Shown one piece after another: positions 10,342-51,462 of a DNA stretch of 64,000 nt (its first letter is position 1; every line of letters starts with the position of its first letter). The position numbers were made by a program, and so were the translations under genes. The notes beneath the pieces are model-generated. The model had not been told where the DNA came from and did not search any database. It saw only the letters and a program-made list of their open reading frames with translations. Source of the stretch: Mycobacterium cookii (GTDB lineage: Bacteria; Actinomycetota; Actinomycetes; Mycobacteriales; Mycobacteriaceae). The DNA lies in contig NZ_AP022569.1 in assembly GCF_010727945.1 (NCBI RefSeq), forward strand, positions 186,001 through 250,000, given 5' to 3'.

Positions 10342-11562
10342 GTGTCCTCCAGGCTGACCGTAGCTCAGGCTCGACGCATAGCTGTTGCGGCACAAGGGTT
10401 TAGCGAGCCGCGGCCAGCTGGGCAGATCACCCGTGCACATCTGCGTCGGCTGATCTCGCGTATCCAGGTACTGCAACTGGATTCAGTGTCGGTCGCGGTA
10501 CGCGCGCACTATGCGCCGGTGTTCAGCCGGCTCGGGCCTTACGACCGCGACGTGCTCGACCGCGCTGCGTGGGCGCACAGCGCCCGCTCGCCGCGGCTGC
10601 TGGTGGAGTACTGGGCGCACGAGGCCGCGCTGATGGCTGTCGACGATTGGCCGCTGCTGCGCTGGCGGATGCGCGAATACCGGCACGGGCGGTGGGGCAA
10701 ACACATCGTCAAGGCCAACCCCCAACTGGCCGACGATATCGTGGCCGCCGTCGCCGAGTTGGGCCCGTCGACTGCCGGCCAGATCGAGAACCACCTTGCG
10801 GAGGTGCCTCGCCGCGCGAAAGGGGCCTGGTGGAATCGCAGTGACACCAAGTGGGTTGCCGAAGCGTTGTTCGCCGCAGGCACGCTGACGACGTCGACCC
10901 GGGTGGGGTTCGCCCGGCATTACGACCTGACGGAGAAGGTGCTGCCCGCCGAGGTGCTGGCCCGGGAGGTCGCTGCAGAAGACGCTGTCCGTGAGCTCAT
11001 GCTGCGCGCCGCAACCGCGTTGGGCGTGGCTACCGCGGCCGACATCCGCGACTACTTCCGGCTGGCAGCCGGACAGGCCAAACCGGCGATCGCCAAGCTG
11101 ATAGCCGACGGCGAGCTGGAGCAGGTGACTGTTGACGGGTGGCCAGCACCAGCGTATTTAGTTGCGGGACAATCGATTCCGCGACGTGATCGTGGCACGG
11201 CACTGCTGTGCCCGTTCGACCCGCTGATCTTCTTCCGCCCGCGGGTCGAGCGGCTGTTCAATTTCCACTATCGCGTCGAGATCTATACGCCGGCGAACAA
11301 GCGACAGTACGGGTACTACGTATGGCCGTTTCTGCTCGACGGCGAGTTGGTGGGACGGGTCGACCTCAAGGCCGATCGAACCGCGGACGCGCTGCATGTC
11401 GTGGCGGCATTTGTCGAGGCAGATCGTTCACCGTCGCACGTCGCCCAAGCGCTGGCCGGTGAGTTGCAGGCGATGGCGGGCTGGTTGGGGCTGGCCGGCG
11501 TGACGGCCGGCCAGCGTGGTGATTTGGCCGGCGAACTGCGAAAGGCTTTGGTGCGACGGTGA
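10342..11562 (+). CDS. Winged-helix DNA glycosylase of the YcaQ/AlkX family (HTH_42)
   Basis: A 406-residue protein with tandem winged-helix segments. The conserved IQVLQLDSVSVAVRAHY stretch (about residues 36-52) contains the Q-x-D motif that in E. coli YcaQ/AlkX is essential for unhooking interstrand crosslinks and removing bulky N7-alkyl bases. LLVEYWAHEAALM, CPFDPLIFFRPRVERLFNF and YGYYVWPFLLDGELVGRVDLK are also family-typical. GTG at 10342 is used. Its stop overlaps the GTG of the following membrane-protein gene. Likely role: DNA alkylation or natural-product crosslink repair; the exact substrate is inferred from the family. Confidence 0.85.
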   Translation: MSSRLTVAQARRIAVAAQGFSEPRPAGQITRAHLRRLISRIQVLQLDSVSVAVRAHYAPVFSRLGPYDRDVLDRAAWAHSARSPRLLVEYWAHEAALMAVDDWPLLRWRMREYRHGRWGKHIVKANPQLADDIVAAVAELGPSTAGQIENHLAEVPRRAKGAWWNRSDTKWVAEALFAAGTLTTSTRVGFARHYDLTEKVLPAEVLAREVAAEDAVRELMLRAATALGVATAADIRDYFRLAAGQAKPAIAKLIADGELEQVTVDGWPAPAYLVAGQSIPRRDRGTALLCPFDPLIFFRPRVERLFNFHYRVEIYTPANKRQYGYYVWPFLLDGELVGRVDLKADRTADALHVVAAFVEADRSPSHVAQALAGELQAMAGWLGLAGVTAGQRGDLAGELRKALVRR

Positions 11563-12050
11563 AGAACGTCAGACGTGGGGATCTACTGGCGAAGTCGGCG
11601 GGGGTGTTCGTCGCCTACACGGCTATCATGCTCTCGATCGAGCGACGACTTCGTCGCGGTGGTGGCCCAGGAATCATCGCTTTCGAACTGGCAGGCACCG
11701 CTTCTCGGGCCGAAGTCATGTTGGACGCATGGGGGCCGGAGGGTCGCCGATTTGCGCGGCTGTCAATGTGGCTCGATTTCGGTTACATGGCGAGTTACGG
11801 CGCGCTGCTTGCCGTCTGGCTCGATCGAGTGCGCCGCCGACGCGGGCACTCCGCTGTGCTTCCGGTATTGGTGGTAGTTGCGGTGGCGGGCGATGCGGTA
11901 GAAGGTGTTTCGCTTCTCAAGGTGCTCAACGGAAATCGCGTCGCGGCCAACGCCCGGCGCGCCAGGACAGCGGCTCTCGCCAAGTTCACAGTGCTTGCCG
12001 GCTGCCTCGGGTATATCGCCGCGCGCTCGTCGGTGCTTTTTAGGCGTTGA
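11559..12050 (+). CDS. Conserved membrane protein of unknown function
   Basis: 163 residues with about four hydrophobic helices (roughly residues 12-25, 70-88, 98-115 and 135-155) and basic loops, so an integral membrane protein. No family is recognised. The GTG at 11559 overlaps the glycosylase stop (GTGA), implying co-translation. Its last 11 bases overlap the 3' end of the convergent lipoxygenase-like gene. Confidence 0.6.
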   Translation: MKNVRRGDLLAKSAGVFVAYTAIMLSIERRLRRGGGPGIIAFELAGTASRAEVMLDAWGPEGRRFARLSMWLDFGYMASYGALLAVWLDRVRRRRGHSAVLPVLVVVAVAGDAVEGVSLLKVLNGNRVAANARRARTAALAKFTVLAGCLGYIAARSSVLFRR

Positions 12051-13575
12051 TGTTGACCTTCAGCTGGCTTGGGTAGAGCCGCCACACTGCATCCGGCTGG
12101 CTTCTCATCTGAGCCTCCAGCTTGGCGAGGTCGGCCTGGAACTGGATCATGACGAGCTGGGCGCGGTAATCAAGCGCGAGACTGTCGAAGTCATCCATCA
12201 GGGCGCGTCGATGCACATTCAGGTTGAAGTTTGAGTTCACCAGTCGCTGGTAGATATCCAACGGCTCGCGCCGAAAATCGCTATAAATCCGCGCCGGCTG
12301 ACGGTGCGTCCACAGCTGATAGTTCCACATGCAGCTGCCGAGGATCTCGTGCTGCACTGTCACTGAGTACAGTTGACCCGCCAGCATCCGCGCCAACTCA
12401 TCCCAGGTAAAGCTGGTGGGGTTTACGCCAACTCCGTTGGGAATAACCGTGTTGAGTTCACCCAGCCACGCTAGCGTCTCTGGATCTTGGTGAATACTGT
12501 TGCTGCCGCGGGCTTTTCGCGGATAGTAGATTCCCAGGTAGTTGCGCACATATCGGTGCAGGACGTCGAACAGCGCTTCGAGGTTATCCTGCGTCGGCGT
12601 ATCGAAAACGGCACCGCGCACTTTGCGTGATTTGCCGTACTCCTCAGGGTCGTTCACGTCGTGGGAATATTGCAGGTAGGTGTCGTCGAATAGTTTGCAC
12701 ATCCCCTCGAAGGTCAGGCTGAAGGTCGTCTCGAAGTCGCCGCCGCGTTCCATCTGCCCGCGGGTGACCATGTCGTTGCTTTGCTGGGTGCCGTAGACGT
12801 ACGGCCACAACAGCCTGAACAGAGGATGATTGGCTGACAGGGAATTGCGCGTAGCGATGGCTAACTGGGCTCCACCTGCCAGGTGTACCCAGTTGTAGTG
12901 GCGTACGAGTGAAAGATGCGTCGAGGCTGCGCACAACACTATTTTGGTGGCCTGGTCCCACTCTGGGTCGTTCGGTGTGATCGAATTGCCCAGCACGCAG
13001 TCGATCTCATATGCCTCTAACGAACGTCGGACCTTGTTAACGCGGAACAACACACGCGAACCGATCTTCAACAGCCCGCGGTGGTGCTGGTAGTTGTCGA
13101 GCATGCGAAGGTCCCATTCCCATGCCGCGCGACGCGCCGAGCGCTGTGTGTAGCACGCGTAGGGACCACGTACTGCCAGCGAACCAAGGTCTGGACTACC
13201 GAGGAACTCGGCCGGCATCCGGGGCGCATCGAATAGTCTGCGACGCGGACCTTTGTACGCTTTTTTCAGCGCTACCTGCGGATCGGCGTCTATCTCCGGT
13301 AGGCGTCGCTGCATGGGTGAAAAAGCTTTGTAGAGCCAAACCTGGATGTCATAGAAGGTGGTGTGCACCCACTTCTGTTCATCTTTGGGGACGTCTGCGC
13401 GTGCGCAGACCATCACGTTGTGCAGCTGCACTGCCGGAATCGCCTGGATCATCGGCTTCGGGGTGATGTGGCGCCATGCGGTCGACGGCCGTTTGATGAC
13501 GAGCGGCCTGCTCGCAAAAAACTTCAACCAGGCGAGGATGTCCCAAAACCAGCGGCGCACAGACCACATCAGCAT
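12040..13575 (-). CDS. Lipoxygenase-like protein
   Basis: About 511 residues. The centre (residues about 219-259) reads like the lipoxygenase metal site: HYNWVH gives the HxxxxH pair, followed by AIATRNSLSANHPLFRLLWP, matching the classical lipoxygenase 'H-x4-H ... LS-HP-LL-P' block. QHEILGS near residue 409 offers the third His. Two further ligands of typical lipoxygenases are not obvious: the residue four after that His is Gly instead of Asn/His, and the chain ends in Asn-Ala, not Ile. It is shorter than plant enzymes and has no PLAT domain. The ATG at 13575 follows GGGAG; a GTG at 13581 is an alternative. It lies 18 bp after a dioxygenase gene on the same strand, suggesting joint action on unsaturated fatty acids. 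Confidence 0.75.
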   Translation of the reverse strand: MLMWSVRRWFWDILAWLKFFASRPLVIKRPSTAWRHITPKPMIQAIPAVQLHNVMVCARADVPKDEQKWVHTTFYDIQVWLYKAFSPMQRRLPEIDADPQVALKKAYKGPRRRLFDAPRMPAEFLGSPDLGSLAVRGPYACYTQRSARRAAWEWDLRMLDNYQHHRGLLKIGSRVLFRVNKVRRSLEAYEIDCVLGNSITPNDPEWDQATKIVLCAASTHLSLVRHYNWVHLAGGAQLAIATRNSLSANHPLFRLLWPYVYGTQQSNDMVTRGQMERGGDFETTFSLTFEGMCKLFDDTYLQYSHDVNDPEEYGKSRKVRGAVFDTPTQDNLEALFDVLHRYVRNYLGIYYPRKARGSNSIHQDPETLAWLGELNTVIPNGVGVNPTSFTWDELARMLAGQLYSVTVQHEILGSCMWNYQLWTHRQPARIYSDFRREPLDIYQRLVNSNFNLNVHRRALMDDFDSLALDYRAQLVMIQFQADLAKLEAQMRSQPDAVWRLYPSQLKVNINA

Positions 13576-13593
13576 TTGCACTCCCGACGATGT

Positions 13594-15972
13594 TTAGGCA
13601 TTGCGGTATGCGTCGCCACGCCACGGATCGGGCTTCAAGTCACGGTCCCAGGCGCGCAGCGGGTGGGAATCGCGGCTGAGCACAGGTCCTTCATCCCAAG
13701 GCTCGAACGCGTTCTTGATGTTGGCAAGACCGGTGTCGGCGAGTTCCGGGTAGTGACGCAGGATCACGGTCTTGAAGTCGGTTTGGTCGATCCACCGGAG
13801 GCCCTCGGGCGTGTACACATCTTCGTTGTAACAATCGGTGTAGAAACGGTCCGCCTGTAGCCGCCGGCTCGCGCTGACGACGAAGATCTGAAACACCGTC
13901 TCGCCGAAGCCGAAATGGGTGGGCCGCTGGGCTTCGGCGAGCGTGCCGATCAGCAGGTCGAGGTCCTCGACGTTGTCCGGCGGGCCGCCATAGACGGACC
14001 TCAGATTATTGAGGGCTTTCGGGTCATCGGTGAGGTCGTCGAAGCTGCGAATCGGTTTCAGCCCCAGTTGGCGACGGAACTCGTTGTACCGGGGGACGCC
14101 GCGTTCGCGTGCGCGCAGGATGTCCACCGCTCCCAGGTCGAAGAACGAGTTCCCCGGGACGCTGAGGTCTTGCATGAAGCGCGGAAAGTTGTTGAGCACC
14201 AGGGCGCCCGGGTGCTGGTTGCCGAACGAGAAGAACAGGTCAGACATGGCGTACTGCTGCGTGAGCAGGGTTGAGCCGCGCTGGCGCGAGGCGGCGAACG
14301 CCTCAGGGTATATCCCGGGGATGCCGCGTCGCCGCAGTTGTAGTGTCTCAGGCAGCAGTGAATGCAGTCGATATACCTCAACGAATTCCTCCGACAGCCC
14401 AAAAACGCAGTCGTGCTTGTTGATCGGGTTACCGACAATGCCGCCAAGCTCGGGGTTGCCGATGTTGATCTCGGCTACCGTCTTGCGGTCCTTGCTCTTA
14501 TGCCGCAGGTAGGTCAGCAAGCCGTACCAGTTCGAGTTCATTCCCATCTCGAGCGTCTGGTTGGGCAAGATCGCAGGGGTCCACTCGACTGAGTGGATCT
14601 TCGCCATAACCGCAGCGTTGATTAGGCGCGCCACATTGAAGAGGAGGTTGTCGTCCCAGTTCGGGTAGGCCCGATGCAGCATGTCGCAGATCGCGTTGTG
14701 TTCTCTCACAAAAAGGGTGTGCAGCATCGACAGCCCCACCCACCAGTTGCGCATGAAAGCGGTCTCCTCGACACCGGTTTTGGGGTCTACCGGCAGCAGC
14801 CCGCCAGGGCCGAGCCGCATCTTGCCGGACTTATGGCTGCGGAGATGGTCCTGGGTGGCCTGGTCGCTGCCATAGATTTGCGAGCCATCCCACCAGTGGG
14901 TGACTTCGTTGATGAAACTGGTCGCGGCGGGGTCCGGTCTCATGCCCGCGTTGCGCGTCGGGTCAGGCTCGGTAGTGCTGATGACTAGTTCGTGTTGGTG
15001 ATAGCGCTGAATCGCCGGGTCGTCGTCCGGCAGGGGCACTGTGATAAGCGAATTGGGCGCGACGTCGCCGTGGCTGATCCAGTCATGGGTCATGAATTGG
15101 ATCCACGATGCGGCCAATAAGTTCAGAAACAAGACTGGCGCCATGTCCGGTTGGCCATCAGCGTCGTCAGGACGGGTAAGCAATTTCAGGCTGATCTCGC
15201 GCGGGTTTGGCGTCAGCAGGCGCGGGCTTTTCTCGGGGTGGGTGGCGGAGAACTCGACGTTTCGCAGGAATCGGGTGTTGGCCGCGCCTTCTTTCGGGTC
15301 GGACAGGTTATTCCAGCTTCCGTCGGCGGTGCGGAAACGAGCGACTCCGGGGGGCGGTGGTGGGCCGTTCTTGAGGAAGGCGACGAGTTCTCCGGGCGGG
15401 TAGGTGCTTTTGAGGTTCTCCGCGCTGAGTCGCTCGCGGATGTAGGCCAGCAGCAGTACTCCGACGACCATCCCGTGGCGATACCAGTTGGTCCATACCG
15501 TGCCGCGGTACCCGAATACCCGACCCACAATTTTGATGAGGAGATCCATCAACACCGTCAGTACCGCACCGGCTCCATTGCCTAACCAGAGCCGAAACCA
15601 CTTGATGCAGCAGCGACACGACCGAGCCGCAGGCGGGTCGGGAATGGCGCCGGGAGGCACGGAAGGCCACGAGAGAAGGTCCGTCTTGGTGGGGTAATGC
15701 GGCGCCGGCACGTGGACGTAGATCTCGGCGGCCGAGTTGGATTTCGCGAGGGCTTCCATTTTGGCCCAGTCGGCGGCGTCCGTGCCGCCGGCTTTCACCG
15801 CCTCGGCGTAAAGCTCCGCTGCGGCCTGATATTCCTCGCGCTTGAAGTGGGCCAGCGCCGCCAACACACACGCCTTGCCATCGCGCTGCTCGGGGGGAAG
15901 GCCCTCAAACCAGTTGATGACGTCCTCGTATTCGCCCCTTTTCAAGGCCTCCAACGCCTCTCTGTAAGACAC
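13594..15972 (-). CDS. Fatty acid alpha-dioxygenase/cyclooxygenase-like haem protein with N-terminal TPR region
   Basis: 792 residues from the GTG at 15972, which has AAGGAG six bases upstream; the frame is open further back to 16053. Residues 1-75 resemble TPR helices (EALKRGEYEDVINWFEGLP, FKREEYQAAAELYAEAV), about 125-180 is basic and hydrophobic (possible membrane anchor), and the rest is an animal-type haem peroxidase of the plant alpha-dioxygenase branch. Key residues: distal His in FMTHDWISH (about 296), EVTHWWDGSQIYGSD, and VYRLHSLLPE, where Tyr (about 534) would be the catalytic radical and His (about 537) the proximal haem ligand, as in COX Tyr385/His388. Expected chemistry: O2 addition to fatty acids. 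First gene of a pair with the lipoxygenase-like gene. Confidence 0.85.
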   Translation of the reverse strand: MSYREALEALKRGEYEDVINWFEGLPPEQRDGKACVLAALAHFKREEYQAAAELYAEAVKAGGTDAADWAKMEALAKSNSAAEIYVHVPAPHYPTKTDLLSWPSVPPGAIPDPPAARSCRCCIKWFRLWLGNGAGAVLTVLMDLLIKIVGRVFGYRGTVWTNWYRHGMVVGVLLLAYIRERLSAENLKSTYPPGELVAFLKNGPPPPPGVARFRTADGSWNNLSDPKEGAANTRFLRNVEFSATHPEKSPRLLTPNPREISLKLLTRPDDADGQPDMAPVLFLNLLAASWIQFMTHDWISHGDVAPNSLITVPLPDDDPAIQRYHQHELVISTTEPDPTRNAGMRPDPAATSFINEVTHWWDGSQIYGSDQATQDHLRSHKSGKMRLGPGGLLPVDPKTGVEETAFMRNWWVGLSMLHTLFVREHNAICDMLHRAYPNWDDNLLFNVARLINAAVMAKIHSVEWTPAILPNQTLEMGMNSNWYGLLTYLRHKSKDRKTVAEINIGNPELGGIVGNPINKHDCVFGLSEEFVEVYRLHSLLPETLQLRRRGIPGIYPEAFAASRQRGSTLLTQQYAMSDLFFSFGNQHPGALVLNNFPRFMQDLSVPGNSFFDLGAVDILRARERGVPRYNEFRRQLGLKPIRSFDDLTDDPKALNNLRSVYGGPPDNVEDLDLLIGTLAEAQRPTHFGFGETVFQIFVVSASRRLQADRFYTDCYNEDVYTPEGLRWIDQTDFKTVILRHYPELADTGLANIKNAFEPWDEGPVLSRDSHPLRAWDRDLKPDPWRGDAYRNA

Positions 15973-16280
15973 ATGAAGCTCCTTGCGTGGCAACCCCGGA
16001 GCTAAAACGTACTTGAAGCGGTCGCAGAAGGCGGAATAAAACCCGCAATTCACCAGCGGGAAGGCCGATTATCGTCAATTGTTTAATCATCCAGGTGAAA
16101 AACACCGGATAGGACAGTCACGCCGGACGTTGCCGACCAATAGTGTTAACCGCGCGTGTTACGTCTTCCAAAGGGCTTCCCCGGCAGCGCCGCCGGTTAA
16201 TAATCAAGCTATTGCTGCTCGAAGCTTTGGGGTGGGTGCACTCGGCAGCCCGGATAAGTGATTGGCGGCAGGAGAGGCAG
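15973..16280. promoter_or_regulatory. Divergent intergenic region between dioxygenase pair and cyclase regulator
   Basis: 308 bp with no convincing gene, AT-richer than the surroundings. It must hold the promoters for the minus-strand dioxygenase-lipoxygenase pair and the + strand regulator. Visible symmetry: GATTA and TAATC bracket the palindrome CAATTG at 16067-16088, and CCCGC/GCGGG arms at 16042-16060 flank a nine-base loop. Either could be an operator or an mRNA leader stem; no consensus promoter is clear. Confidence 0.4.
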
Positions 16281-19200
16281 ATGGGGCCAGCAGGCGCGAT
16301 GTGCCGAGCGTGCGGCACCGAACTGCGTGTTGGGGCCCGGTTCTGCGACTCATGCGGGGTACAGGCTCCCGAAGCAGACCAGCAGCCCGAGTTCAAGCAG
16401 GTGACGGTGCTGTTCGCTGATGTGGTGAATTCGTTGACGATCGCCTCGGCGGTTGGCGCGGAGCGGTTGCGCGAGATAATGGCCGAGGTTTTCGGCTGCG
16501 CGGCAACAATTACCCGTCGGTACGGCGGCACGGTCGACAAGTTCACCGGCGACGGCATCATGGCACTGTTTGGGGCACCGGTCGCGCTGGAGGATCACGC
16601 TTTCCGGGCTTGTCTGGCGGCTTTGGATATTCAAGAGCAGATCGCGCAGCTGGCTGATGAAGTGCTGCACCGCGACGGCGTCGTGCTGCAGCTGCGGGTC
16701 GGACTGAACTCTGGCCGGGTGATTGCCGGCGAAATCAGTTCTGACGCAAGGGCATACACCGCGGTTGGTGAGGAGGTCGGTTTAGCGCAGCGGATGGAAT
16801 CGGTCGCCCCGCCCGGTGGGGTGATGCTGAGTGAGTCGACAGCGCGGCTGGTCGAATATGCCACCGTGCTGGGCGCGCCCGAGTTGGTGCACATCAAGGG
16901 TGCCGACGAGCCGTTACCCGCGCGTCGGCTGCTGGGGGCCGCTGCTGAGCGCATGCGGATCGGCCGGCGTGAACCAACCCTGGTCGGACGCGCCTGGGAG
17001 ATGAACACCGTCGCCGGCATTCTCGACCAGGCGATCAGCGGTGCCGGATGTGTGGTCGGGGTGGTGGGACCACCCGGTATCGGCAAGAGCCGCATCATGA
17101 ATGAGGCCGTCACGCTTGCTACCAGTCGTGGGGTCGAGGTGTTCACCGTCGCGTGCGAATCCCATACCCGCGAGGTCCCGTTTCATCTGGTGGCGCGATT
17201 GCTGCGCAGGGTTTTCGGGGTGAGCAACCTCGATGAGCACGCGGGCCGGGCGCGGGTGCGGGCCCGCATGCCCGACGCCAACCCAGAAGACCTGTCGCTG
17301 CTGGAAGACTTGCTCGGAATCGGCGACCCCGATGCCGCGCTGCCTGACATCACCGCCGATGCCCGGCGGCGCCGGTTGGCGGCGTTGTTGAAGGCCATCG
17401 CCCTGACCCGGACCACACCGGCGCAGTACGTCATCGAAGACGTGCACTGGATCGACGAGGTCAGCGAGGCCATGCTCGCTGAATTGGTCACCGTTGTGCG
17501 GCAGGGCCATTCGCTGGTGCTGATCACCTACCGCCCCGAATACCGGGGTGCGTTGTCGCGAACACCGGGTACACAGACGATCTCGCTGACGCCGTTGAAC
17601 TCGGCGCAGACCTCAGCGTTGACCGCGGAGCTACTAGGTACTGACCCGTCGGTGCGAGCCCTGAGCGCACGGATTGCCGACCGGGCCGCCGGGAATCCGT
17701 TCTTCGCTGAGGAGATGGTGCGTGACCTGGCCCAGCGCGGCGTACTCGACGGCGATCGCGGCGCGTATAGCTGCGGAGAGGACGTCGCCGACGTCAGTGT
17801 GCCGGCCACGTTGCAAGCCACCATCGCCGCTCGCATCGACCGCCTCGGTCGGCCTGCGAAGCAGTTCCTTTACGCCGCTGCGGTCGTCGGCGCGCGATTC
17901 AGGGCCGAGCTGGTGGCCGCTTTGCTGGATGACATCGACGCAGCCGGCGCGATCGCCGAGTTACTGCAGGTGGAGTTGATCGATCAGGTGATGTTCACTC
18001 CGCGCGCCGTGTATGCGTTTCGGCACCCATTGATCCGGACGGTGGCCTACGAGTCGCAGCTGAAGTCCGGGCGGGCCGAATTGCACCGACGGTCGGCTAT
18101 CGCGATTGAGCAGCAGGATCCCGGCGCGGCCGATGAGAACGCCGCCCTGATTGCTGAAAACCTTGAGGCTGGCGGAGATTTGCGCGCGGCGTTCGACTGG
18201 CACATGCGCGCCGGCGCGTGGTCGGCCTTCCGTGACATTCGGGCGGCCCGCACCAACTGGCAGCGGGCTCGTCAGGTGGCCGACCGACTACCCGCCGACA
18301 CCCCGTATCGGGCATCGTTGCAGATCGCGCCTCGCAACCTGTTATGCGGCACCCTGTGGCGGACCGGTGGCAGTATCGCCGCCACGGGTTTCGACGAATT
18401 GCGAGATCTCTGCACTGCGGCAGACGACAAGGTCTCGTTGGCGATCGGCATGACCGGATACATCATGGCGTTGACCTTTCACAACCGGTTCCGCGATGCG
18501 GCCCAGGTCGCTTCAGAGCAGAGCGAACTGCTCGAATCGATCGGGGATCCGACGCTGACGGTGGCACTACTGTTCGCGGCGATATACGCCAAATGCCAAG
18601 CGGGGGAGATGATCGAGGCCCTGCGATTGGCGGATCGACTCATCGACTTGGCCGACGGGGATCCCACCAAGGGGAACTTGATTTTCGGCTCACCGCTGAG
18701 CACTGCCATCGCGATGCGCGGCCACGTCAAGATGTGCCTGGGAATCCGAGGATGGCTGGACGACGCCGCCACGTCAATCGCGATGGCGGCTCCGCTGGAC
18801 CCGACGAGTTATGTTTTCGCCCTGCTCTGGAAGTACGTCGCCTCCATCCCATTCGGGGCGCTACCGGCCGATGCGACCGCCATGCGCGAGACCACCGAGG
18901 CGCTGCGCATCGCCGAAAGTTCGAGCGACGACTTCGTTCTCGGAATGGGCCGACTCAGCCGAGGCCTAGTGCTGGTTACCGGCGAGGGCCCAGAACGCGA
19001 GGCGGGTCTGGACCTGTTCACCCAAGCTCGCGACATGGCTGTGGCGGAACGGTTCTCCCTGAGTTCGCTGACTATCGTCGACCCCGAGTTCGCGATGGAG
19101 AAGGCCCGGAACGGGGATCTCGATGGTGCCGTCGAACTAGCGCGCTCGGTGGTGGACGGCGCATACGAAAGCGGCGACATGATCTGGCGCGGAAGGGCCA

Positions 19201-19481
19201 CCGAAGTTCTGATGCAACTGCTGATCCGACGCGGTTCTGTTGCAGATCTGCAAGAAGCGGAGACGGCGATAGACCGACTGGCCGCCATACCAACCGATCC
19301 CGGCTTCGTGCTGCACGAACTGCCCCTGCTGCGTTCGCGGGCACTGCTTGCGCGGGCGCATGGTGACGAAAAGGGCCACCGGAACTTCGCCGAACAACAC
19401 CGCGCCAAGGCGGCAGCGGCGGGGTTCGACGCTATCACGGCCGATGCCAACGCGACGGTGATTGTGCCCCAACGTGACTGA
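16281..19481 (+). CDS. Zinc-ribbon / class III nucleotidyl cyclase / AAA ATPase / TPR-like regulator
   Basis: 1066 residues. ATG at 16281 follows GGAGAG. Domains in order: a zinc ribbon with two CxxC pairs (MCRACGTEL, FCDSCG; residues 7-31); a class III cyclase domain (about 40-220) with both metal-binding Asp (FADVVN, GDGIMALFG) and the Lys of DKFTGDG; an ATPase with Walker A GPPGIGKS (about 266-273) and Walker B-like YVIEDVHW; then long helical repeats to the end. The cyclase position that normally holds the transition-state Asn (V-N-L-A-x-R) reads VGLAQR, so activity may be weak or altered. Such fusions are common in mycobacteria and act as signalling ATPases/cyclases. It is divergent from the dioxygenase pair and may regulate it. 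Confidence 0.85.
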   Translation: MGPAGAMCRACGTELRVGARFCDSCGVQAPEADQQPEFKQVTVLFADVVNSLTIASAVGAERLREIMAEVFGCAATITRRYGGTVDKFTGDGIMALFGAPVALEDHAFRACLAALDIQEQIAQLADEVLHRDGVVLQLRVGLNSGRVIAGEISSDARAYTAVGEEVGLAQRMESVAPPGGVMLSESTARLVEYATVLGAPELVHIKGADEPLPARRLLGAAAERMRIGRREPTLVGRAWEMNTVAGILDQAISGAGCVVGVVGPPGIGKSRIMNEAVTLATSRGVEVFTVACESHTREVPFHLVARLLRRVFGVSNLDEHAGRARVRARMPDANPEDLSLLEDLLGIGDPDAALPDITADARRRRLAALLKAIALTRTTPAQYVIEDVHWIDEVSEAMLAELVTVVRQGHSLVLITYRPEYRGALSRTPGTQTISLTPLNSAQTSALTAELLGTDPSVRALSARIADRAAGNPFFAEEMVRDLAQRGVLDGDRGAYSCGEDVADVSVPATLQATIAARIDRLGRPAKQFLYAAAVVGARFRAELVAALLDDIDAAGAIAELLQVELIDQVMFTPRAVYAFRHPLIRTVAYESQLKSGRAELHRRSAIAIEQQDPGAADENAALIAENLEAGGDLRAAFDWHMRAGAWSAFRDIRAARTNWQRARQVADRLPADTPYRASLQIAPRNLLCGTLWRTGGSIAATGFDELRDLCTAADDKVSLAIGMTGYIMALTFHNRFRDAAQVASEQSELLESIGDPTLTVALLFAAIYAKCQAGEMIEALRLADRLIDLADGDPTKGNLIFGSPLSTAIAMRGHVKMCLGIRGWLDDAATSIAMAAPLDPTSYVFALLWKYVASIPFGALPADATAMRETTEALRIAESSSDDFVLGMGRLSRGLVLVTGEGPEREAGLDLFTQARDMAVAERFSLSSLTIVDPEFAMEKARNGDLDGAVELARSVVDGAYESGDMIWRGRATEVLMQLLIRRGSVADLQEAETAIDRLAAIPTDPGFVLHELPLLRSRALLARAHGDEKGHRNFAEQHRAKAAAAGFDAITADANATVIVPQRD

Positions 19482-19573
19482 GCGAATGTCTGACAACTAC
19501 GGCGGTGCACGAAAAGAGTCTTGGTCAGCCAATTTCGTTGACGAACGTTCGACTTCGACGCAGGAGTTCCGCC

Positions 19574-20971
19574 ATGGCACGACTGGGTGAGCGTGCGGTC
19601 GTTCTCGGGGCGAGCATGGGCGGGCTGCTCGCGGCGCGGGTCCTCGCCGACTTCTTTGACACTGTCACGGTAGTCGAGCGTGATGAGTTACCGGATCATC
19701 CCGCTGTCCGACGCGGGGTGCCGCAGGGCCGGCATGTTCATGTTCTGCTGGCCCGCGGGGCGCAGATCTTCGATGAGCTCTTCCCTGGGCTTCTCGATGA
19801 ACTGGTCGCCGACGGCGCTCCCGTGTGGGACGACGGCGAACTGTCCAAGCTGCGCCTGTCTTTCGGTGGCCACGACATACTGCGCTCGGGCAAGGTCGCG
19901 AAAGAGGCCAAGGCGTTAGCGATCCACTTGCCGAGCAGGCCGTTTCTGGAATGCCATGTGCGGCGGCGCCTCCGGGCGATGAGCAACGTGACGATTCTCA
20001 GCGGACACGAGATGGTCGAGTTGGCGGCGACACCGGATCGCCGCCGTGTCACCGGGGTACGGGTTGTCGGCCGCGACGACGGCGCTGAACGGGCGCTGAC
20101 TGCCGACGTCGTCATGGATGCGATGGGTCGCGGTGCGCACACGCCGGCTTTCCTGGACAGCCTCGGCTACGGTCGACCGGTCGAGGACCACATCATCATG
20201 CATACGAACTACGTGAGCCAACTGCTGCAAATCCCCGCGGGCACGCTGAACGAGATGTTGGTCGATATCGGCCCCGCGCCGGACAGGCCAGCCGGAATGT
20301 TCCTGAGCGGCTACGAGAACGACACGTGGATGTTCACGGTTTTCGGGATGGCGGGAAACCAGCCGCCCCGCGATCTGGCCGGCATGCTGTCATTCGCCGA
20401 GGAGTACTGCCCCGCGCACCTCTATGCGGCGATCCGGGCTGCCGAACCGATTGGCGACACGGCACATCACCACATGCCGTCCAGCCAGTGGCGACGCTAC
20501 GACAAAATGTCCCGACTACCGGACGGTCTGCTGGTGTGCGGCGACGCAATCTGCAGCTTCAATCCCATCTACGGACAGGGAATGACGGTGGCCGCGTTGG
20601 AGGCCGTCGCGCTGCGGGCGTGTTTGCATCGCGGCGACACCGATCTGCCCGGGCGATATTTCCGTGCTGCAGCGAAACCGATTGGCGTGGCCTGGCAGAT
20701 GGTAGCGAGCTTGGACCTGGCCTTCCCGGCGGTGGCGGGGCGACGGTCACGATGGTTGCGCGTTGCTACCCGGCTGGTGGATTGGGCGCTGACGGCCTCT
20801 GAGTCCGATCCGGTTGTCGCCGTGCGCTTCTTCAGAGTCAACAGCCTTGTCGATTCGCCAATTCGCCTGCTGCATCCCTCATTTGTCTGCCGCGCAGCGG
20901 TGGTGACACTGCGCCGTCGCCGCGGCGATAGACAACCTGGGCAAGCCGTAGTGGCCGAGCAGGCCCGCTAG
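19574..20971 (+). CDS. FAD-dependent monooxygenase (phenol hydroxylase/squalene epoxidase-like)
   Basis: 465 residues. The ATG at 19574 lies after CAGGAG; the dinucleotide loop then starts near residue 10 (VVLGASMGGLLAARVL). The second FAD motif GDAICSFNPIYGQGM (about 325-340) and QGRHVHVLLARGA are typical of mycobacterial group A flavin monooxygenases such as Rv0575c-like proteins. Expected reaction: NAD(P)H- and O2-dependent hydroxylation or epoxidation of a hydrophobic substrate. It follows the cyclase-type regulator by 92 bp on the same strand and closes the accessory block before thyX. A role in modifying products of the neighbouring dioxygenase pair is only a guess. Confidence 0.82.
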   Translation: MARLGERAVVLGASMGGLLAARVLADFFDTVTVVERDELPDHPAVRRGVPQGRHVHVLLARGAQIFDELFPGLLDELVADGAPVWDDGELSKLRLSFGGHDILRSGKVAKEAKALAIHLPSRPFLECHVRRRLRAMSNVTILSGHEMVELAATPDRRRVTGVRVVGRDDGAERALTADVVMDAMGRGAHTPAFLDSLGYGRPVEDHIIMHTNYVSQLLQIPAGTLNEMLVDIGPAPDRPAGMFLSGYENDTWMFTVFGMAGNQPPRDLAGMLSFAEEYCPAHLYAAIRAAEPIGDTAHHHMPSSQWRRYDKMSRLPDGLLVCGDAICSFNPIYGQGMTVAALEAVALRACLHRGDTDLPGRYFRAAAKPIGVAWQMVASLDLAFPAVAGRRSRWLRVATRLVDWALTASESDPVVAVRFFRVNSLVDSPIRLLHPSFVCRAAVVTLRRRRGDRQPGQAVVAEQAR

Positions 20972-39455: not shown

Positions 39456-41009
39456 GTGACTTCGATGGTGACCTCGGACGCAGCGCCCGCTGCGCCGGCT
39501 GTGCCTTCGCCGACGCCAGGGGCGCCGGTGCGCACTTACGAGGTCCGCACCTACGGATGTCAGATGAACGTCCACGACTCCGAGCGGCTGGCAGGTCTGC
39601 TGGAGGCCGCGGGCTACCGGCGGGCGACTGACGGCGCGGACGCCGACGTGGTGGTGTTCAACACCTGCGCGGTGCGGGAGAACGCCGACAACAAGCTGTA
39701 CGGCAACATCAGCCACCTGGCCCCGCGTAAGCGCAGCAATCCCGACATGCAGATCGCGGTCGGCGGATGCCTGGCGCAGAAGGACAAAGACTCGGTGCTG
39801 GCCAAGGCGCCATGGGTCGACGTGGTGTTCGGCACGCACAACATCGGGTCGCTGCCCACGCTGCTCGAGCGGGCTCGGCACAACCGGGTCGCCCAGGTGG
39901 AGATCGCCGACGCATTGCAGCAATTCCCGTCGTCGTTGCCTGCTGCCCGTGAATCCGCTTACGCCGCTTGGGTTTCCATCTCGGTGGGATGCAACAACAG
40001 CTGCACGTTCTGCATCGTGCCGTCGTTGCGCGGCAAGGAGGTCGACCGCAGCCCGGACGACATCCTGGCCGAGGTGCGATCGCTGGTCGACGACGGCGTA
40101 CTGGAAATCACGCTGCTCGGCCAGAACGTCAACGCCTATGGCGTGTCGTTCGCCGACCCGCAACTGCCGCGCAACCGTGGTGCCTTCGCTGAGCTGTTGA
40201 CCGCATGCGGGCGTATCGACGGCCTTGAGCGGGTGCGGTTCACCTCGCCTCATCCGGCCGAATTCACCGACGACGTGATCGCGGCCATGGCCACAACGCC
40301 CAACGTCTGCCCGACCCTGCACATGCCTCTGCAGTCCGGATCGGACCGGGTGCTGCGCGCCATGCGCCGCTCCTACCGGGCCGATCGTTATCTCGGCATC
40401 ATCGACCGGGTGCGGGCGGCCATGCCGCACGCCGCGATCACCACCGATCTGATCGTCGGCTTCCCCGGCGAGACCGAAGACGACTTCGCCGCCACACTCG
40501 ACGTCGTCCGGCAGGCCCGGTTCGCCAGCGCATTCACGTTCCAGTACTCCAAGCGGCCGGGCACTCCCGCCGCCGACCTCGACGGACAACTGCCGAAAGC
40601 CGTTGTGCAGGAACGCTACGAGCGACTGATCGAGCTGCAGGACCAGATCGCCTGGGAGGAGAACCTCAACCAGGTCGGGCGGACCGTCGAGTTGCTCGTC
40701 GCCACCGGTGAAGGCCGCAAGGACGAGCGCACCGCCAGGATGAGCGGCCGCGCTCGCGACGGGCGCCTGGTGCATTTCGCGCCCGGTGGCCAACAAGTGC
40801 GCCCGGGTGACGTCGTCACGACGACGATCACCGGCGCGGCGCCACATCACCTGATCGCCGACGGCGACGTCATCAGTTACCGACGCACCCGCGCCGGCGA
40901 CGCGCACGCCGCAGGTCAGCGTCCGCGCGGCACCGGCTCATTAATTCTCGGCATGCCCGCGATCGGACAGCCTGCCGCGTCAACGGAAACACTGGGGTGC
41001 CCACGATGA
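39456..41009 (+). CDS. miaB: tRNA-2-methylthio-N6-dimethylallyladenosine synthase
   Basis: Radical-SAM methylthiotransferase that modifies A37 of tRNAs reading UNN codons. 517 residues. The N-terminal UPF0004 domain has three Cys (YGCQMN, NTCAVR, GGCLAQ) for the auxiliary cluster; the radical-SAM cluster is CNNSCTFC (about residues 179-186); a TRAM domain ends the protein ([17 protein letters not shown] onward). It acts on the isopentenylated base made by MiaA, also in this window. GTG at 39456. Its stop overlaps the ATG of the next gene. Confidence 0.96.
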
Positions 41010-41620
41010 GCCGCAACGAGGGTGAATTCGACGCTTTCCGCGACGACATCGAAGCTGCGGAACGCCGAATCGCTCGCGAAATCGAGCCGGGCGCACGAGC
41101 GTTGGTTGTCGCCGTGCTGGTGTTCGTGCTGATCGGATCGTTCGCCCTGCCGCACACCGGCGACGTGCGTGGCTGGGATGTCTTGTTCGCGACCCACGGC
41201 GCCGGCAAGGCGGCGATCGCGCTGCCGTCACGCGTATTCAGTTGGCTCGCTTTAGTTTTCGGTGTCGGTTTCTCGATGCTGGCGCTGTTGACCCGACGCT
41301 GGGCGTTGGCGTGGATCGCGTTGGCGGGCTCGGCGGTGGCCTGCGCGGCCGGTCTGCTGGCCGTGTGGTCCCGGCAGACCGTCGCCCACGGGCATCCGGG
41401 TCCCGGCGTCGGGCTGGTGGTCGCCTGGATCACGATCATTCTGCTGACGTTTCACTGGGCGCGCGTCGTCTGGTCGCGCACGATCGTGCAGCTCGCCGCT
41501 GAGGAGCAGCGCCGCAAGGCGGCCGCCCACGAGCAGGCCCGGACACTGCTGGAGACTCTGGACGACCCGAATAGCGCCCAGCCGCCCAAACCCAACGGCA
41601 CGGCCCCGGGGTCGGTTTGA
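41006..41620 (+). CDS. Conserved membrane protein (Rv2732c-type)
   Basis: 204 residues with four hydrophobic helices (about 33-53, 75-95, 100-120 and 132-152) between a charged N-terminus ([20 protein letters not shown]) and a Gln/Ala-rich C-terminal helix. Function unknown. The ATG at 41006 overlaps the miaB stop (ATGA). Convergent with the DUF349 gene. Confidence 0.8.
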
Positions 41621-41622
41621 TT

Positions 41623-41667
41623 GCCCGGCTCCTCAACGGGCCGACGCGGCCCGCATCGTCGCCGGGC
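41623..41667. terminator. Hairpin region between convergent Rv2732c-like and DUF349 genes
   Basis: GCCCGGC (41623-41629) can pair with GCCGGGC (41661-41667), and within it CGGGCC (41637-41642) pairs with GGCCCG (41648-41653). GC-rich, no U-tract. Probably a shared terminator. Confidence 0.45.
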
Positions 41668-42989
41668 TAGCGCTTCTTGGTCAGTGCGTCAGCGGCCGCT
41701 TCAGCCCACTGCCGCCACTGCTCGGCGTTAGCCCTGGCCTGCTCGGCTTCCTTGGTCCGTCCTGCCGCCTCGGCCTTCTGGGCTTGGCGCTCGAACTGCT
41801 CGACACGTTCCCGGAACTGCTCGGCGCGAGCCTGAGCCTGCGGATCCGACCAGTCTGACTCGCCGGCGTCGCGCACCTTCTTTTCCACCGCGCGCAACCG
41901 CCGCTCGAGATCAGCGGAGCGTTCCCGGGGCACCTTGCCGATCGCGTCCCATTTCTCACCGATGGCCCGCAGCGCCGACCTGGCTGCTTCGTGATTACTG
42001 GTGTCGAGCTTTTCCGCCTCGGCCAGTAATGCTTCCTTGGCGACGGCGTTCGCGTGGAATTCGGCGTCACGTTCGGCGGTCGCGCTGTTGCGGGCTTTGA
42101 AGAAGGTGTCCTGAGCGGCTTTGAATCGGTGCCACAGTGCGTCGTCGACATCGCGGGCGGCACGTCCGGCCGCCTTCCAATCGGCGAGCAGCTTGCGGAA
42201 CTCGGCGCTGGTCGCTCCCCAGTCGGTGGAGTCAACGAGTTCCTCGGCTTGCACGCAGAGCCGCTCCTTGACCTCGCGGGCCCCGGCCCGGTCGCGGTCC
42301 AATTCGGCGAAATGCGAACCGCGGCGGCGATTGAACGTCTCGCGAGCAGCCGAATAGCGCTTCCACAGCGCGTCATCGGTCTTGCGGTCCAAGCCGTTGA
42401 TCGTCTTCCACTCATCGAGGATCGTGCGTAGCCGGTCGCCGGCGACCTTCCACTGCGTGGAGGTGTTGGCCAACTCCTCGGCCTCGGCGGCCAACGCTTC
42501 CTTGCGGGCGGTCTGCGCCGCGCGGTGCTCGTCGCGACGCGAGCGGTCCGCGGCCGCGCTGGCTTCGGCGTGTTCGGCGATGACGGCGAGGCGCGCGGCC
42601 AGCGCATCGATATCGCCGAGCACATTGGCGGTCGGTAACGTTTCGGCCAGCCCGGCGGCGGTCGCTTTGATCTTGCGGGCATCTCCGGTGCCCGCGGCCA
42701 GCCGCTCTTCGAGCAAGGTGATCTCGGTGCTCAGGTCGTCGAACCGCCGGCCGAAGTGGGTGAACGCCGCTTCGGTGTCGCCGGCCTGCCACGATCCGAT
42801 GATCCGCTCGCCGCCGGCGCTGACCAGCCAGACCGTTCCGTCGTCGTCGACGCGACCGAACTGGTGGGGATCGCTGGCCGGGGGTAACGCGACCGGGTGG
42901 GGATGAGGACGGGGTGTCGGTTTGGGCCCGGGCCGCGGTCCTGGCCGCGGGATGGGCCGCGGTTCGTTGTGTGGCTCGTCAGACGTCAT
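41667..42989 (-). CDS. DUF349 domain protein (Rv2731-type)
   Basis: 440 residues. A Pro/Arg/His-rich N-terminus (about 1-40) is followed by a small beta domain ([20 protein letters not shown]) and then helical DUF349 repeats with the recurring W-K-G-R-D-DALW-RF pattern ([20 protein letters not shown], and another near residue 200 with [15 protein letters not shown]). The C-terminus is coiled coil. Function unknown in bacteria. ATG at 42989; a TTG three bases earlier is possible. Confidence 0.85.
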
Positions 42990-43309
42990 CAACTGCCGTC
43001 ACCTACCCTTCGCGCGGTTATTGGCCGCGCACCTGCCGCGCATAGCGGCGCCGTCGATATGAGATACCTGTTCAGTATTGAAGCAGCTTGCCGCACGCAG
43101 CGTCCCGAGTTGGCGGCGCAGGCCATGTCGCCGCGGGTTTTGCCTGCGTCGATAAGGGATGTGGTGTACGCCGCAATCATCTGTTGCGCCGCACGCAATG
43201 TGCCACACGAGCCGCCGAATAGGGGTGCCGAAGACCGCGCGGCAGTGCGGCGCGACCGGTAGTCGACCTAAGCTGGCCGGAGTAATCGACGGTGAACAGG
43301 CGGTGAACG
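42990..43309. other. Gap of 320 bp without a convincing gene
   Basis: Between the divergent DUF349 and EamA-type transporter genes. A minus-strand frame (42999-43460) exists but overlaps the transporter start and has no family features. The region should hold the two divergent promoters; none fits a clear consensus by eye. Confidence 0.5.
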
Positions 43310-44221
43310 ATGCCGAAAGCGGACTTCGCAGCGCTGATCGCGCTCTGCGCCGCGCTGGCGTCTGCGGTGGGGGATGTGATCCGGCAGCGGTCGGCTCAGG
43401 AGGTAACCGACAAACAGGTCGGACATCTCGAGCTCTTCCGGCTGTCAGTACGAGACCCACGCTGGTGGCTGGGTGGCGCGGGAGCGGTCGCCAACTACAG
43501 CTTGCAGGCCGCCGCGTTGGCTCTGGGCTCGGTCATGCTGGTGACCGCGTTGCAGGTGACGTCGCTCTTGTTCGCTCTGCCGATCTATGCGCGGTTGGCC
43601 CATCACCGGGTGACGCGCTGGGAGTGGACGTGGGCGGTGACGCTGGCCGGTGCGCTGGCGGTGCTCGTCGCGATGGGCCACCCGGACGCCGGGAGCACGC
43701 GCGGTTCGCTGGGAACGTGGCTGTTGGTAATCGCGGTAATGGGTCCGGTCATGGTGTTGTGTGTGCTGGGCGCACGCGTCTGGTCGCGCGGTCCGGTGGC
43801 GCCGGTGCTGTTGGCGGTGGTGGCGGGTTCGGCGCTGGCGTTGTTCGCGGTGCTGACCAAAAGCGCCGTCGGGGCGGCGTCCGGCGGCGTCGGCGCATTT
43901 CTGCGCGCGCCCGAGTCGTACTGCCTGATACCGGCCGCGCTGGTCGGAATGATCTTCCAACAGTCGGCATTTCGCGCGGGTGCGCTGACCGCCTCATTGC
44001 CCACGGTGACCGTCGCCAAACCGGTGGTGGCCACGTTGCTCGGCGTCGTGGTGTTGAGGGAGGCGCTCAATGCCAGCGGCCCGCGACTGCTCGCGCTGGT
44101 CGCTGCCTCGATTCTGGTGGTGATCTCGACGATCGCACTGGCCCGTGGCGAAGCGGCGACCATCGCCGCAGGCGCCGGACACGACGTCGTCGTTCCTGAT
44201 GTGGCGGCGTCTCACGGTTAG
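43310..44221 (+). CDS. EamA/DMT-type transporter, copy 1
   Basis: 303 residues with about nine or ten transmembrane helices. The N-terminal ALASAVGDVIRQRSAQEVTD and later NYSLQAAALALGSVMLVTAL are the duplicated-half pattern of drug/metabolite transporters. GMIFQQSAFRAGALTASLPT and TVAKPVVATLLG mark the second half. A tandem paralogue of the same length follows after 97 bp. Related to Rv2729c. Substrate unknown. Confidence 0.82.
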   Translation: MPKADFAALIALCAALASAVGDVIRQRSAQEVTDKQVGHLELFRLSVRDPRWWLGGAGAVANYSLQAAALALGSVMLVTALQVTSLLFALPIYARLAHHRVTRWEWTWAVTLAGALAVLVAMGHPDAGSTRGSLGTWLLVIAVMGPVMVLCVLGARVWSRGPVAPVLLAVVAGSALALFAVLTKSAVGAASGGVGAFLRAPESYCLIPAALVGMIFQQSAFRAGALTASLPTVTVAKPVVATLLGVVVLREALNASGPRLLALVAASILVVISTIALARGEAATIAAGAGHDVVVPDVAASHG

Positions 44222-44318
44222 CTGCGGCGCGTGACACCCGGCCTTTCATCACCGCCGTCAGTACCGTGGCATGGAAGACTGCAGGTTCGGGCCGTTCGAC
44301 GACTGGGGGGAGGTAGCC

Positions 44319-45230
44319 ATGTCTAAAGCGGACGTTGCTGTGCTGCTGGCCTTGGCCGCCGCCTTGGCATCGGCGATCGGCAATGTGGAGCGTCAGCGGT
44401 CGGCGCACGAGGTCACCGACAAACCAGTGGGCTACCTGGCGCTGTTCATCATGTCGTGGCGCAATCGAAGCTGGCGCATCGGCGCGGTGGCGGCTGTCGC
44501 CAATTACGCGTTTCAGGCTGGGGCGCTGAGCCTGGGATCGGTAATGCTGGTCACCGGATTGCAGGTCACGGCGCTGCTGTTCGCACTCCCGATTTACGCC
44601 CGCATGAACGGGCATCCGGTGACGTTGTGGGAATGGATTTGGGCGGCGGTCTTGGCCGCCGCGCTGGCCGTCGTGCTCACCGTCGGCAATCCGGTCGCCG
44701 GCTATTCGCGAGCGCCGTGGTCGACGTGGATGATCGTCGCCGCGGTCATGGGACCGCTGCTCGCGCTGTGCGTGCTGGGTGCCCGGATATGGCCGCATCG
44801 GGCTATCGCCGCGGTATTGCTGGCGGCGGTCTCCGGCGCGTCGCTGGGGCTGTTCGCGGTGCTGGTCAAAGGGGCGACTGAAGCCGCCGAGGGCGGCATA
44901 GGGGCACTGCTTGCCGCGCCGGAGCTGTACGCGTCGGTCGGAGCGGCGTTCGCCGGGATGGTGTTCCAGCAGTCGGCGTATCGCGGTGGACCGTTGAACG
45001 TGTCCATGCCGACGATGACGGTGGCCAAACCGGTCGTGGGCTCGCTGCTGGGCGTCGCTGTGCTCGGCGAGACAGTCCAGCCGGACGAGGAGCGGGTCGT
45101 GGTCCTGATCGTGGCGGTTTTGCTGACCGTGATCGCGACCGCGGCTCTGGCTCGCGGTGAAGCCGAAACCGTGCAGGCCCATGCCGACGACGTGGCCACC
45201 GGACGATTGTTGGCGATCTCGGAGGGTTAG
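44319..45230 (+). CDS. EamA/DMT-type transporter, copy 2
   Basis: 303 residues, colinear with its upstream neighbour: ALASAIGNVERQRSAHEVTD, NYAFQAGALSLGSVMLVTGL, GMVFQQSAYRGGPLNVSMPT, TVAKPVVGSLLG. ATG at 44319 follows GGGGGGAGG. The pair arose by tandem duplication; H37Rv has a single gene (Rv2729c) at this place. Followed nine bases later by the Rv2728c-like gene. Confidence 0.82.
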   Translation: MSKADVAVLLALAAALASAIGNVERQRSAHEVTDKPVGYLALFIMSWRNRSWRIGAVAAVANYAFQAGALSLGSVMLVTGLQVTALLFALPIYARMNGHPVTLWEWIWAAVLAAALAVVLTVGNPVAGYSRAPWSTWMIVAAVMGPLLALCVLGARIWPHRAIAAVLLAAVSGASLGLFAVLVKGATEAAEGGIGALLAAPELYASVGAAFAGMVFQQSAYRGGPLNVSMPTMTVAKPVVGSLLGVAVLGETVQPDEERVVVLIVAVLLTVIATAALARGEAETVQAHADDVATGRLLAISEG

Positions 45231-45239
45231 TTTTATCGC

Positions 45240-45923
45240 GTGCTGAGCGCCATCGCCATCATTCCGTCAGCGCCGGTTCTGGTTCCGGAGCTCGCCGGGA
45301 CCGCGGCCGACGAGGTGGCTGAGCTGCGCGCGGCGATGATCGCCGCGGCCTCCGCGCTTCCGCCGCGCTGGATCGCTGTTGGGGTGGGCGACGCCGACGG
45401 AGTCATCGGTCCGCAGGCGGTCGGCACCTTCGCGGGCTTCGGCGTCGACGTGCCTGTGCGACTGTCCCCGAAAAGCGTTGAGCCGGTTGATATGCCGCTG
45501 TGCGGACTGATGGCCGGCTGGATTCGTGCGCAGGCCCAGCCGCACGCGCAGGCGCAGGTTCGGGTGTACGCCGCACACCACGACGCCCAGACGGCGATCG
45601 CGCTTGGTCGGCAGCTGCGTGGCGACCTCGACCAGTCGGACGAGCCGATCGGCGTGCTGATCGTCGCCGACGGCGCCAACACGCTGACCCCTGCCGCGCC
45701 CGGCGGCTATCAACCCGACGACATCGAGGTTCAGCGCGCCGTGGACGACGCGCTGGCCTGCGGCGACGTTGCCGCGCTCAGTGCGCTGCCCGAGCAGGTC
45801 GGGGGACGGGTGGCATTCGGTGTACTGGCGGGGCTGGCCGATCCGGTGCCGCGGTCGGCCAAGGAGCTCCATCGCGCGGCGCCTTACGGCGTCGGGTACT
45901 TCACCGGTATCTGGCAGCCGTGA
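45240..45923 (+). CDS. Conserved protein of unknown function (Rv2728c-type)
   Basis: 227-residue soluble protein. [36 protein letters not shown] and [19 protein letters not shown] recall the fold of class III extradiol dioxygenase-like proteins, but no metal site is evident. GTG at 45240. Its stop overlaps the GTG of miaA, so it is translationally coupled to tRNA modification. Confidence 0.78.
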
Positions 45924-50261: not shown

Positions 50262-50543
50262 CGCCCTGCCTCATTGCTCACATCGTGCGGACGCCGTCCG
50301 CTTTCAGCTTCGCCCAAGCTACTAGACGTCTGTCGAACAGAACCTGAGTACGGGGATTTTCGCGTCCGATTTTTGGAATTTTTCTCCGGCGCGTGTTTGT
50401 GCAGGTCAAAGTCCCGCTGCTCATCGAGCCGGGGCGGGCACGCGAGGGCGGTCGGAAGACGCTGTCGGCACGTATCCTGAACGGGTGATTCGCGCCGGTG
50501 ACCTGGACTCCGCCGTGTCGGCGTGCGGGGGAGAGCGGCGCTG

Positions 50544-51416: not shown

Positions 51417-51462
51417 ATCGGATGCATATCGGCGTCCCGGCGTGCACCATTTGTAGTTGCCT

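Follow-up and report, generated by a model that had tools for sequence, protein, structure and literature searches.

Adjacent alpha-dioxygenase and lipoxygenase-like genes as a candidate oxylipin unit in Mycobacterium cookii and other bacteria

The window, a stretch of 64,000 nucleotides covering positions 186001-250000 of the 5.32 Mb single-contig genome of Mycobacterium cookii, carries on its minus strand a gene for a haem alpha-dioxygenase (aDOX or, in the pair, DOX) at 13594-15972, followed after a gap of 18 bp on the same strand by a gene for a lipoxygenase (LOX)-like protein at 12040-13575. An earlier note, made from the sequence alone, had read this place as two adjacent oxygenase genes, and its coordinates, strand and spacing have been reproduced. 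As judged from the sequences, the family matches and active-site residues of both proteins are far beyond chance. The features of the pair are as follows.

13594..15972, minus strand: aDOX gene, 792 residues, with a TPR-like N-terminus, a hydrophobic region (by eye) and a haem alpha-dioxygenase domain (PF03098, PDB alpha-dioxygenases)
15727..15972, minus strand: TPR-like N-terminal region of aDOX, about residues 1-82 (TPR_2, E 0.076, under cut-off)
15085..15087, minus strand: distal haem His, H296 in THDW (alignment)
14362..14373, minus strand: catalytic Tyr and proximal haem His, Y534-R-L-H537 (PDB match, alignment)
12040..13575, minus strand: LOX-like gene, 511 residues, with an N-terminal helix at 2-21 (PF00305, model and PDB fold matches)
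12883..12900, minus strand: iron-ligand His pair, H226-x4-H231 (alignment)
12337..12351, minus strand: third iron His, H409, and Gly413 at the canonical Asn place (alignment)
12043..12054, minus strand: C-terminus NINA, with Ala at the place of the canonical iron-ligating Ile (alignment, model)

The aDOX frame opens at 16053 (819 residues), and its likely start, chosen by eye, is the GTG at 15972 directly 3' of AAGGAG. The LOX-like gene starts with the ATG at 13575, which is preceded by GGGAG and lies 18 bp past the aDOX stop, and a purine-rich stretch precedes the likely starts of both genes. The G+C contents of the two genes, 0.615 and 0.58, are below that of the window (0.663), and the named close homologues are mycobacterial.

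By its matches, the 13594-15972 protein is closest to aDOX and not to cyclooxygenase (COX) or other haem peroxidases. It matches An_peroxidase (PF03098) of Pfam with an E value of 5.2e-108, and its top PDB matches are 4kvj ('fatty acid alpha-oxidase', 4.5e-108) and 4hhr ('alpha-dioxygenase', 1.2e-100), which we take to be the alpha-dioxygenases of rice and Arabidopsis, respectively; the next matches are far weaker (lactoperoxidase, 1.5e-30; COX-2, about 7e-15). The YRLH motif and distal His that the earlier note had pointed out correspond to Y534-R-L-H537 and H296. Residues D362/S364 (WWDGS), H460, T465 and R704 are also present in the alignment; the first two presumably make up the Ca site and the other three presumably bind the carboxylate, and the catalytic roles given here are likewise our assumption. 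These active-site residues are invariant in 20 aligned relatives, the distal His excepted. Since the structure model of aDOX is poor (pLDDT, the predicted local distance difference test score, 48) and was unused for the fold, the assignment rests on sequence. The N-terminal ~80 residues contain five predicted helices (pLDDT about 79-92, the rest of the model being poor), and several aDOX homologues carry a precomputed PF13432 TPR domain. The predicted activity of the window aDOX is the formation of a 2-hydroperoxy fatty acid.

The LOX-like protein matches PF00305 with 33.7 bits (E 2e-8), above the curated cut-off of 23.6, whereas two cyanobacterial control lipoxygenases score 198.5 and 204.5 bits. 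The earlier note had proposed a lipoxygenase from an HxxxxH block and would have given the idea up if no lipoxygenase profile matched; the profile does match, and the block, H226-x4-H231, aligns with the LOX His pair. The PDB sequence matches are lipoxygenases (E 3.5e-9). An AlphaFold model (pLDDT 86; predicted template modelling score 0.90) finds lipoxygenases in all the PDB fold matches listed, with about 17-20% identity in structure alignments, and at the level of this model the protein is shown to have the lipoxygenase catalytic-domain fold. No PLAT domain was found in it. H226, H231 and H409 are invariant in 24 of 24 aligned rows, and the place of the fourth ligand, expected to be Asn (or His/Ser), is occupied by Gly413 in all 24. 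At the C-terminus, where Ile is canonical, Ala is found in 145, Gly in one and Ser in one of the 147 relatives listed, a count that leans to close relatives, as it includes 120 listed of 890 that are all at least 66% identical; the 27 long-protein matches described below are more distant LOX relatives than those 120. The chain end still aligns at the metal-site place in the structure alignment, and the site aligned with the O2-gate is Val or Ile in 20 of the 24 rows. Because the iron ligands are not the textbook set (Gly for Asn, Ala for Ile), the sequence suggests that the protein is no less likely to process hydroperoxides than to act as an ordinary dioxygenase.

Of the two controls, Acaryochloris LOX (L110) has a canonical metal site. 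The other, a Nostoc plasmid lipoxygenase (L109:1673-3514), has a strong Pfam score but carries Gly both at the place of the Asn ligand and at the C-terminus, and the altered metal site was therefore rejected as a strict mark of this LOX branch. A plasmid home for LOX was likewise considered; only three distant plasmid LOX records were found, at 23.5-28.4% identity, and these indicate no link to plasmids.

LOX is rare in the genus, being found in 10 of 396 genomes (7 of 361 at >=90% completeness and <=5% contamination), and in a phylum-wide sample of 396 it occurs only in the window's own genome. DOX adjoins LOX in all nine mycobacterial loci with room for it, and the tenth mycobacterial LOX (G070), close to a contig end, looks like a decayed fragment. 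In the same genus sample, 119 genomes have aDOX homologues. Nine of these homologues, 64-100% identical across almost their whole length, are of the TPR type, and the nine genomes that carry them are exactly the nine with the adjacent pair. The break is sharp: among the matches listed, the other genus aDOX do not exceed 46% identity and none begins before residue 111, so that the TPR region is not reached.

A scan of genome contigs reaching beyond the genus gave 15 loci, the mycobacterial ones counted. DOX lies beside LOX in Rubrivivax (L017, L019), another member of Burkholderiales (L018), Nitrospira (L023) and Nitrospiraceae (L025), giving 3/3 for Burkholderiales, and in 2/2 loci of Pseudonocardiales, where the genes are rearranged (LOX first in L021, divergent in L022). 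L020, L024 and L026 are cut within the LOX gene and so stand outside the adjacency count. In Nitrospirota, 11 of 245 sampled genomes have LOX, and DOX is adjacent or fused in 9 of these 11, namely fused in G787 and G979 and adjacent in seven (G789, G808, G911, G799, G1000, G902 and G990); the DOX frame of G789 is broken, G808 and G911 are cut by contig ends, and LOX of G911 is split over two frames. In total, the pair is adjacent or fused in 23 of 25 testable loci from four groups. The earlier note had proposed a two-enzyme unit and a check of its neighbourhood across mycobacteria, and had named separation of the genes in other genomes as the finding that would speak against it; the operon-like layout and the linkage are borne out, and the fusions and linked signalling genes described below had escaped it.

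In Nitrospira moscoviensis, both enzymes are fused in a protein of 1592 residues, the middle of which is hydrophobic (by eye). When the LOX part of this protein was used as query against candidates limited to long proteins, 26 of the 27 matches carried PF03098, including those of Nitrospira sp. KM1 and Nam80; in the exception, P0146 (954 residues), PF00305 alone is listed. Besides that of N. moscoviensis, 26 database proteins join both enzymes. One fused protein is named 'heme peroxidase/lipoxygenase' in its source. Since natural DOX-LOX fusions exist, it is very likely that DOX and LOX share a joint function.

Upstream of the pair in the window lie two genes of the opposite strand.

16143..19481, plus strand: divergent cyclase/AAA signalling protein with a zinc-ribbon-like N-terminus (PF00211, 9.4e-23; PF13191, 9.2e-22; zinc ribbon under cut-off)
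19505..20971, plus strand: FAD-dependent monooxygenase-like protein (FAD_binding_3 and SE matches under cut-off)

The cyclase/AAA gene adjoins DOX in 9 of 10 actinobacterial loci with flanking sequence (the window, L012-L016, L067, L068 and L022); L021 is without it and has a BTAD/NB-ARC/TPR regulator two genes from LOX instead. The FAD monooxygenase-like gene comes next in six of the seven mycobacterial loci that have flanking sequence (absent from L015; L012 is cut). One family of GAF histidine kinases occurs in 11 of 12 Nitrospirota/Nitrospinota loci (all but L023), and in the ten where LOX is unfused the kinase gene is its immediate neighbour; in L025, L059 and L062 there is an 8-base overlap between the longest kinase frame and the LOX frame. 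Among the five kinases searched with Pfam, a receiver domain was found in L025, L061 and L064 and not in L026 and L058. The kinase of L025 (11574-14432) and its relatives in L026 and L058-L066 carry an unrecognised region, some 300 residues long, at the N-terminus, for which four pieces gave no Pfam match above cut-off and the L025 piece gave no PDB match; a reading of this sensor region by eye as a V4R-like domain was supported by no tool.

Beyond the kinase, genes for FadL-family outer-membrane transporters of fatty acids are seen in L060:964-2433, L063:846-2351 and L065:10518-11954, which include both loci without adjacent aDOX. A RoxA-like cytochrome c gene directly follows LOX or the fusion in L019:5207-6799, L024:1067-2686 and L058:5022-6557, two loci of Burkholderiales and one of Nitrospira (the fusion in L058), L024 being assigned by clustering with the L019 gene; its product is perhaps a third oxygenase of the unit. 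In the window, the AlkZ-like, LOX, aDOX, cyclase and FAD genes (10342-20971) are flanked by thyA/dfrA-like and thyX/dapA-like genes (by eye), and, by clusters of open reading frames, L016 has this site in common with the window. Elsewhere, 40000-52000 has a G+C content of up to 0.72 and a strong AT skew, and we guess that it holds repetitive PE/PPE-like genes.

Different partners accompany aDOX in eight other mycobacterial loci, which were hand-chosen and not random (three for their long frames); a DOX open reading frame was in the picked set for seven of the eight and for none in L104. aDOX is fused to a catalase-related domain in L101:5519-8437, L102:7143-10223 and L106:6030-9131, and a separate catalase-related gene lies beside it in L103 and L108. 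Of the low catalase scores, 19-28 bits, that of L101 alone passes the cut-off of 25, and the five catalase-related proteins are 53-89% identical to one another; the aDOX that have them lack the TPR part. aDOX-catalase oxylipin units in mycobacteria are possible. L105 has a wax-ester synthase gene beside aDOX. In L107:6587-9712, directly after aDOX comes a cytochrome P450 gene and next an acyl-CoA oxidase gene, an arrangement that recalls the fungal DOX-CYP enzymes. In the accessible parts of the sources, the hydroperoxide-processing partners in coral and fungal fusions are catalase-related and P450 enzymes (PMC5617202, PMC13049297), and cyanobacteria have catalase-LOX and catalase-DOX fusions (PMC11719350). 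Because these other aDOX partners are of hydroperoxide-processing types, it is attractive to regard the LOX-like partner, by analogy, as a second-step enzyme.

These observations lead to the hypothesis that the pair is a two-enzyme fatty-acid oxygenation (oxylipin) unit, to which we give a probability of roughly two in three. In this unit, aDOX would abstract the alpha-hydrogen of a free fatty acid and add O2 to give a 2-hydroperoxy acid, which would decay to a Cn-1 aldehyde if left unprocessed. The LOX-like partner would act next on the same acyl chain, and conversion of the hydroperoxide (isomerase/epoxy-alcohol or lyase type) is somewhat likelier than ordinary dioxygenation of polyunsaturated fatty acids (PUFA). 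The linked kinase or cyclase may read or control the product or its substrate.

Several points weigh against this hypothesis. The chemistry of the unit, namely its substrate, product and order of action, is a prediction. To our knowledge, PUFA are not a known feature of bacteria in these groups, which bears on the substrates. An isomerase is weakly indicated by the changed ligands and by the Val at the presumed O2-gate; of the two cyanobacterial controls, one likewise has Gly at the ligand place and is without the terminal Ile. The unit is probably located at the membrane, as judged from hydrophobic stretches read by eye. Two Nitrospirota genomes (G875, G943) have LOX and the kinase with a more distant aDOX on another contig and none adjacent, suggesting that LOX may work without aDOX. 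Congruent inheritance of the two genes was upheld only partly, since the topologies of the DOX and LOX trees differ. Built from 18 loci (L018, L020, L024, L025, L026, L059, L063, L065 and L066 being dropped as cut, broken or without DOX), both trees group mycobacteria with Rubrivivax as well as four unfused Nitrospirota rows; only in the DOX tree are the two fused rows sisters and is Rubrivivax inside the mycobacteria, two long DOX branches being flagged, and only in the LOX tree are the Pseudonocardiales rows sisters. Finally, the distal His, kept in the window aDOX, is present in 16 of the 20 aligned aDOX relatives and is replaced by Gly in L015, L017 and L019 and by Arg in L021, where the remaining checked residues are kept; the available text of Kim et al. 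2021 reports partial conservation of this residue in its aDOX set (PMC8720084).

It is possible, if doubtful, that the LOX-like protein is instead an ordinary lipoxygenase that acts on exogenous or host PUFA in parallel with aDOX, yielding 2,x-dihydroperoxides, or that it provides the hydroperoxide activating the aDOX haem. The three iron His, the chain end at the metal-site place and the full catalytic fold are consistent with this, and plant oxylipin routes are started by LOX and aDOX according to the accessible parts of PMC4490225 and PMC8358658. However, the Gly for Asn, the Ala for the terminal Ile and the Val/Ile at the O2-gate argue against it, as does a published screen whose accessible part treats a His+Asn cluster as essential for true ALOX (PMC6612559). 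It is unlikely that alpha-oxidation shortens exogenous fatty acids for nutrition while the LOX-like protein removes toxic hydroperoxides: aDOX takes part in alpha-oxidation (PMC8720084, as far as available), FadL-family genes lie near LOX in three loci and the acyl-CoA oxidase gene lies near a different mycobacterial aDOX, but the most recurrent neighbours, in the subset annotated, are signalling genes and not those of beta-oxidation or aldehyde dehydrogenase. A chance neighbourhood of unrelated functions, for which the two Nitrospirota loci of 11 without adjacent aDOX might be quoted, is highly improbable given the recurrence in four groups, the rearranged order and orientation in Pseudonocardiales and the fusions.

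With the oxylipin unit as the preferred reading, a more specific form may be put forward tentatively: an undescribed class of lipid-signal module, in which aDOX and a LOX-like hydroperoxide isomerase, often fused, would make a new oxylipin from ordinary fatty acids and a linked GAF kinase (Nitrospirota/Nitrospinota) or cyclase-AAA protein (Actinobacteria) would sense or control it. In plants and animals, oxylipins have a central place as mediators, and few bacterial oxylipin pathways are known to us. The pair or fusion, conserved in bacteria that are only distantly related, points to a bacterial counterpart of these signalling-lipid pathways; a conserved, signalling-linked DOX-LOX unit of Burkholderiales, Actinobacteria and the nitrifying Nitrospira would be a further oxylipin route of bacteria, would bear on how fatty-acid oxygenases became joined to second enzymes, and supplies named proteins for expression and assay. 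The lipoxygenase family would also come to include proteins whose metal site is altered and which screens that require the His+Asn cluster would miss.

The earlier note knew of no bacterial two-enzyme unit of this kind, and in agreement with this, no description of the DOX-LOX pair was found in the open PMC literature (subscription papers and preprints lying outside this scope). No such pair appears in the accessible parts of PMC8720084, PMC13049297, PMC6612559, PMC11011848, PMC11719350 and PMC10889196; in the first of these (Kim et al. 2021), which knows aDOX from five bacterial phyla, the main text as available has no occurrence of 'lipoxygenase', 'mycobacteri' or 'nitrospir'.

Bacterial lipoxygenases (Cyanothece CspLOX2, 5med; Enhygromyxa, 8x8f; P. 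aeruginosa, 4g32) have in common with the window protein the LOX catalytic domain, the three iron His and the chain end at the metal-site place, whereas the window protein differs in having Gly for the Asn ligand, Ala for the C-terminal Ile and an accompanying aDOX. The diol synthases of P. aeruginosa are di-haem cytochrome c-like enzymes and neither aDOX nor LOX. In the available parts of PMC6377657 and PMC5155153, they are described as an oxylipin system of bacteria that serves in signalling, like the proposed unit. The window aDOX shares its haem domain, catalytic Tyr, both haem His, Ca site and carboxylate-binding His/Thr/Arg with plant and cyanobacterial alpha-dioxygenases (4kvj, 4hhr; CalDOX and LepDOX in the accessible part of PMC8720084); unlike these, it has a TPR-like N-terminal part and a LOX-like partner, adjacent here and fused in some relatives. 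In fungal DOX-CYP and in coral and cyanobacterial catalase-LOX and catalase-DOX fusions, as in the pair, an oxygenase is fused or adjacent to a second lipid-peroxide enzyme, whereas here aDOX is joined with LOX itself, a combination without mention in the accessible parts of those sources (PMC13049297, PMC11719350, PMC5617202). The joining of an oxygenase to a second oxylipin enzyme is a known kind of arrangement, of which the pair would be a variant with aDOX and a LOX-like protein as the partners.
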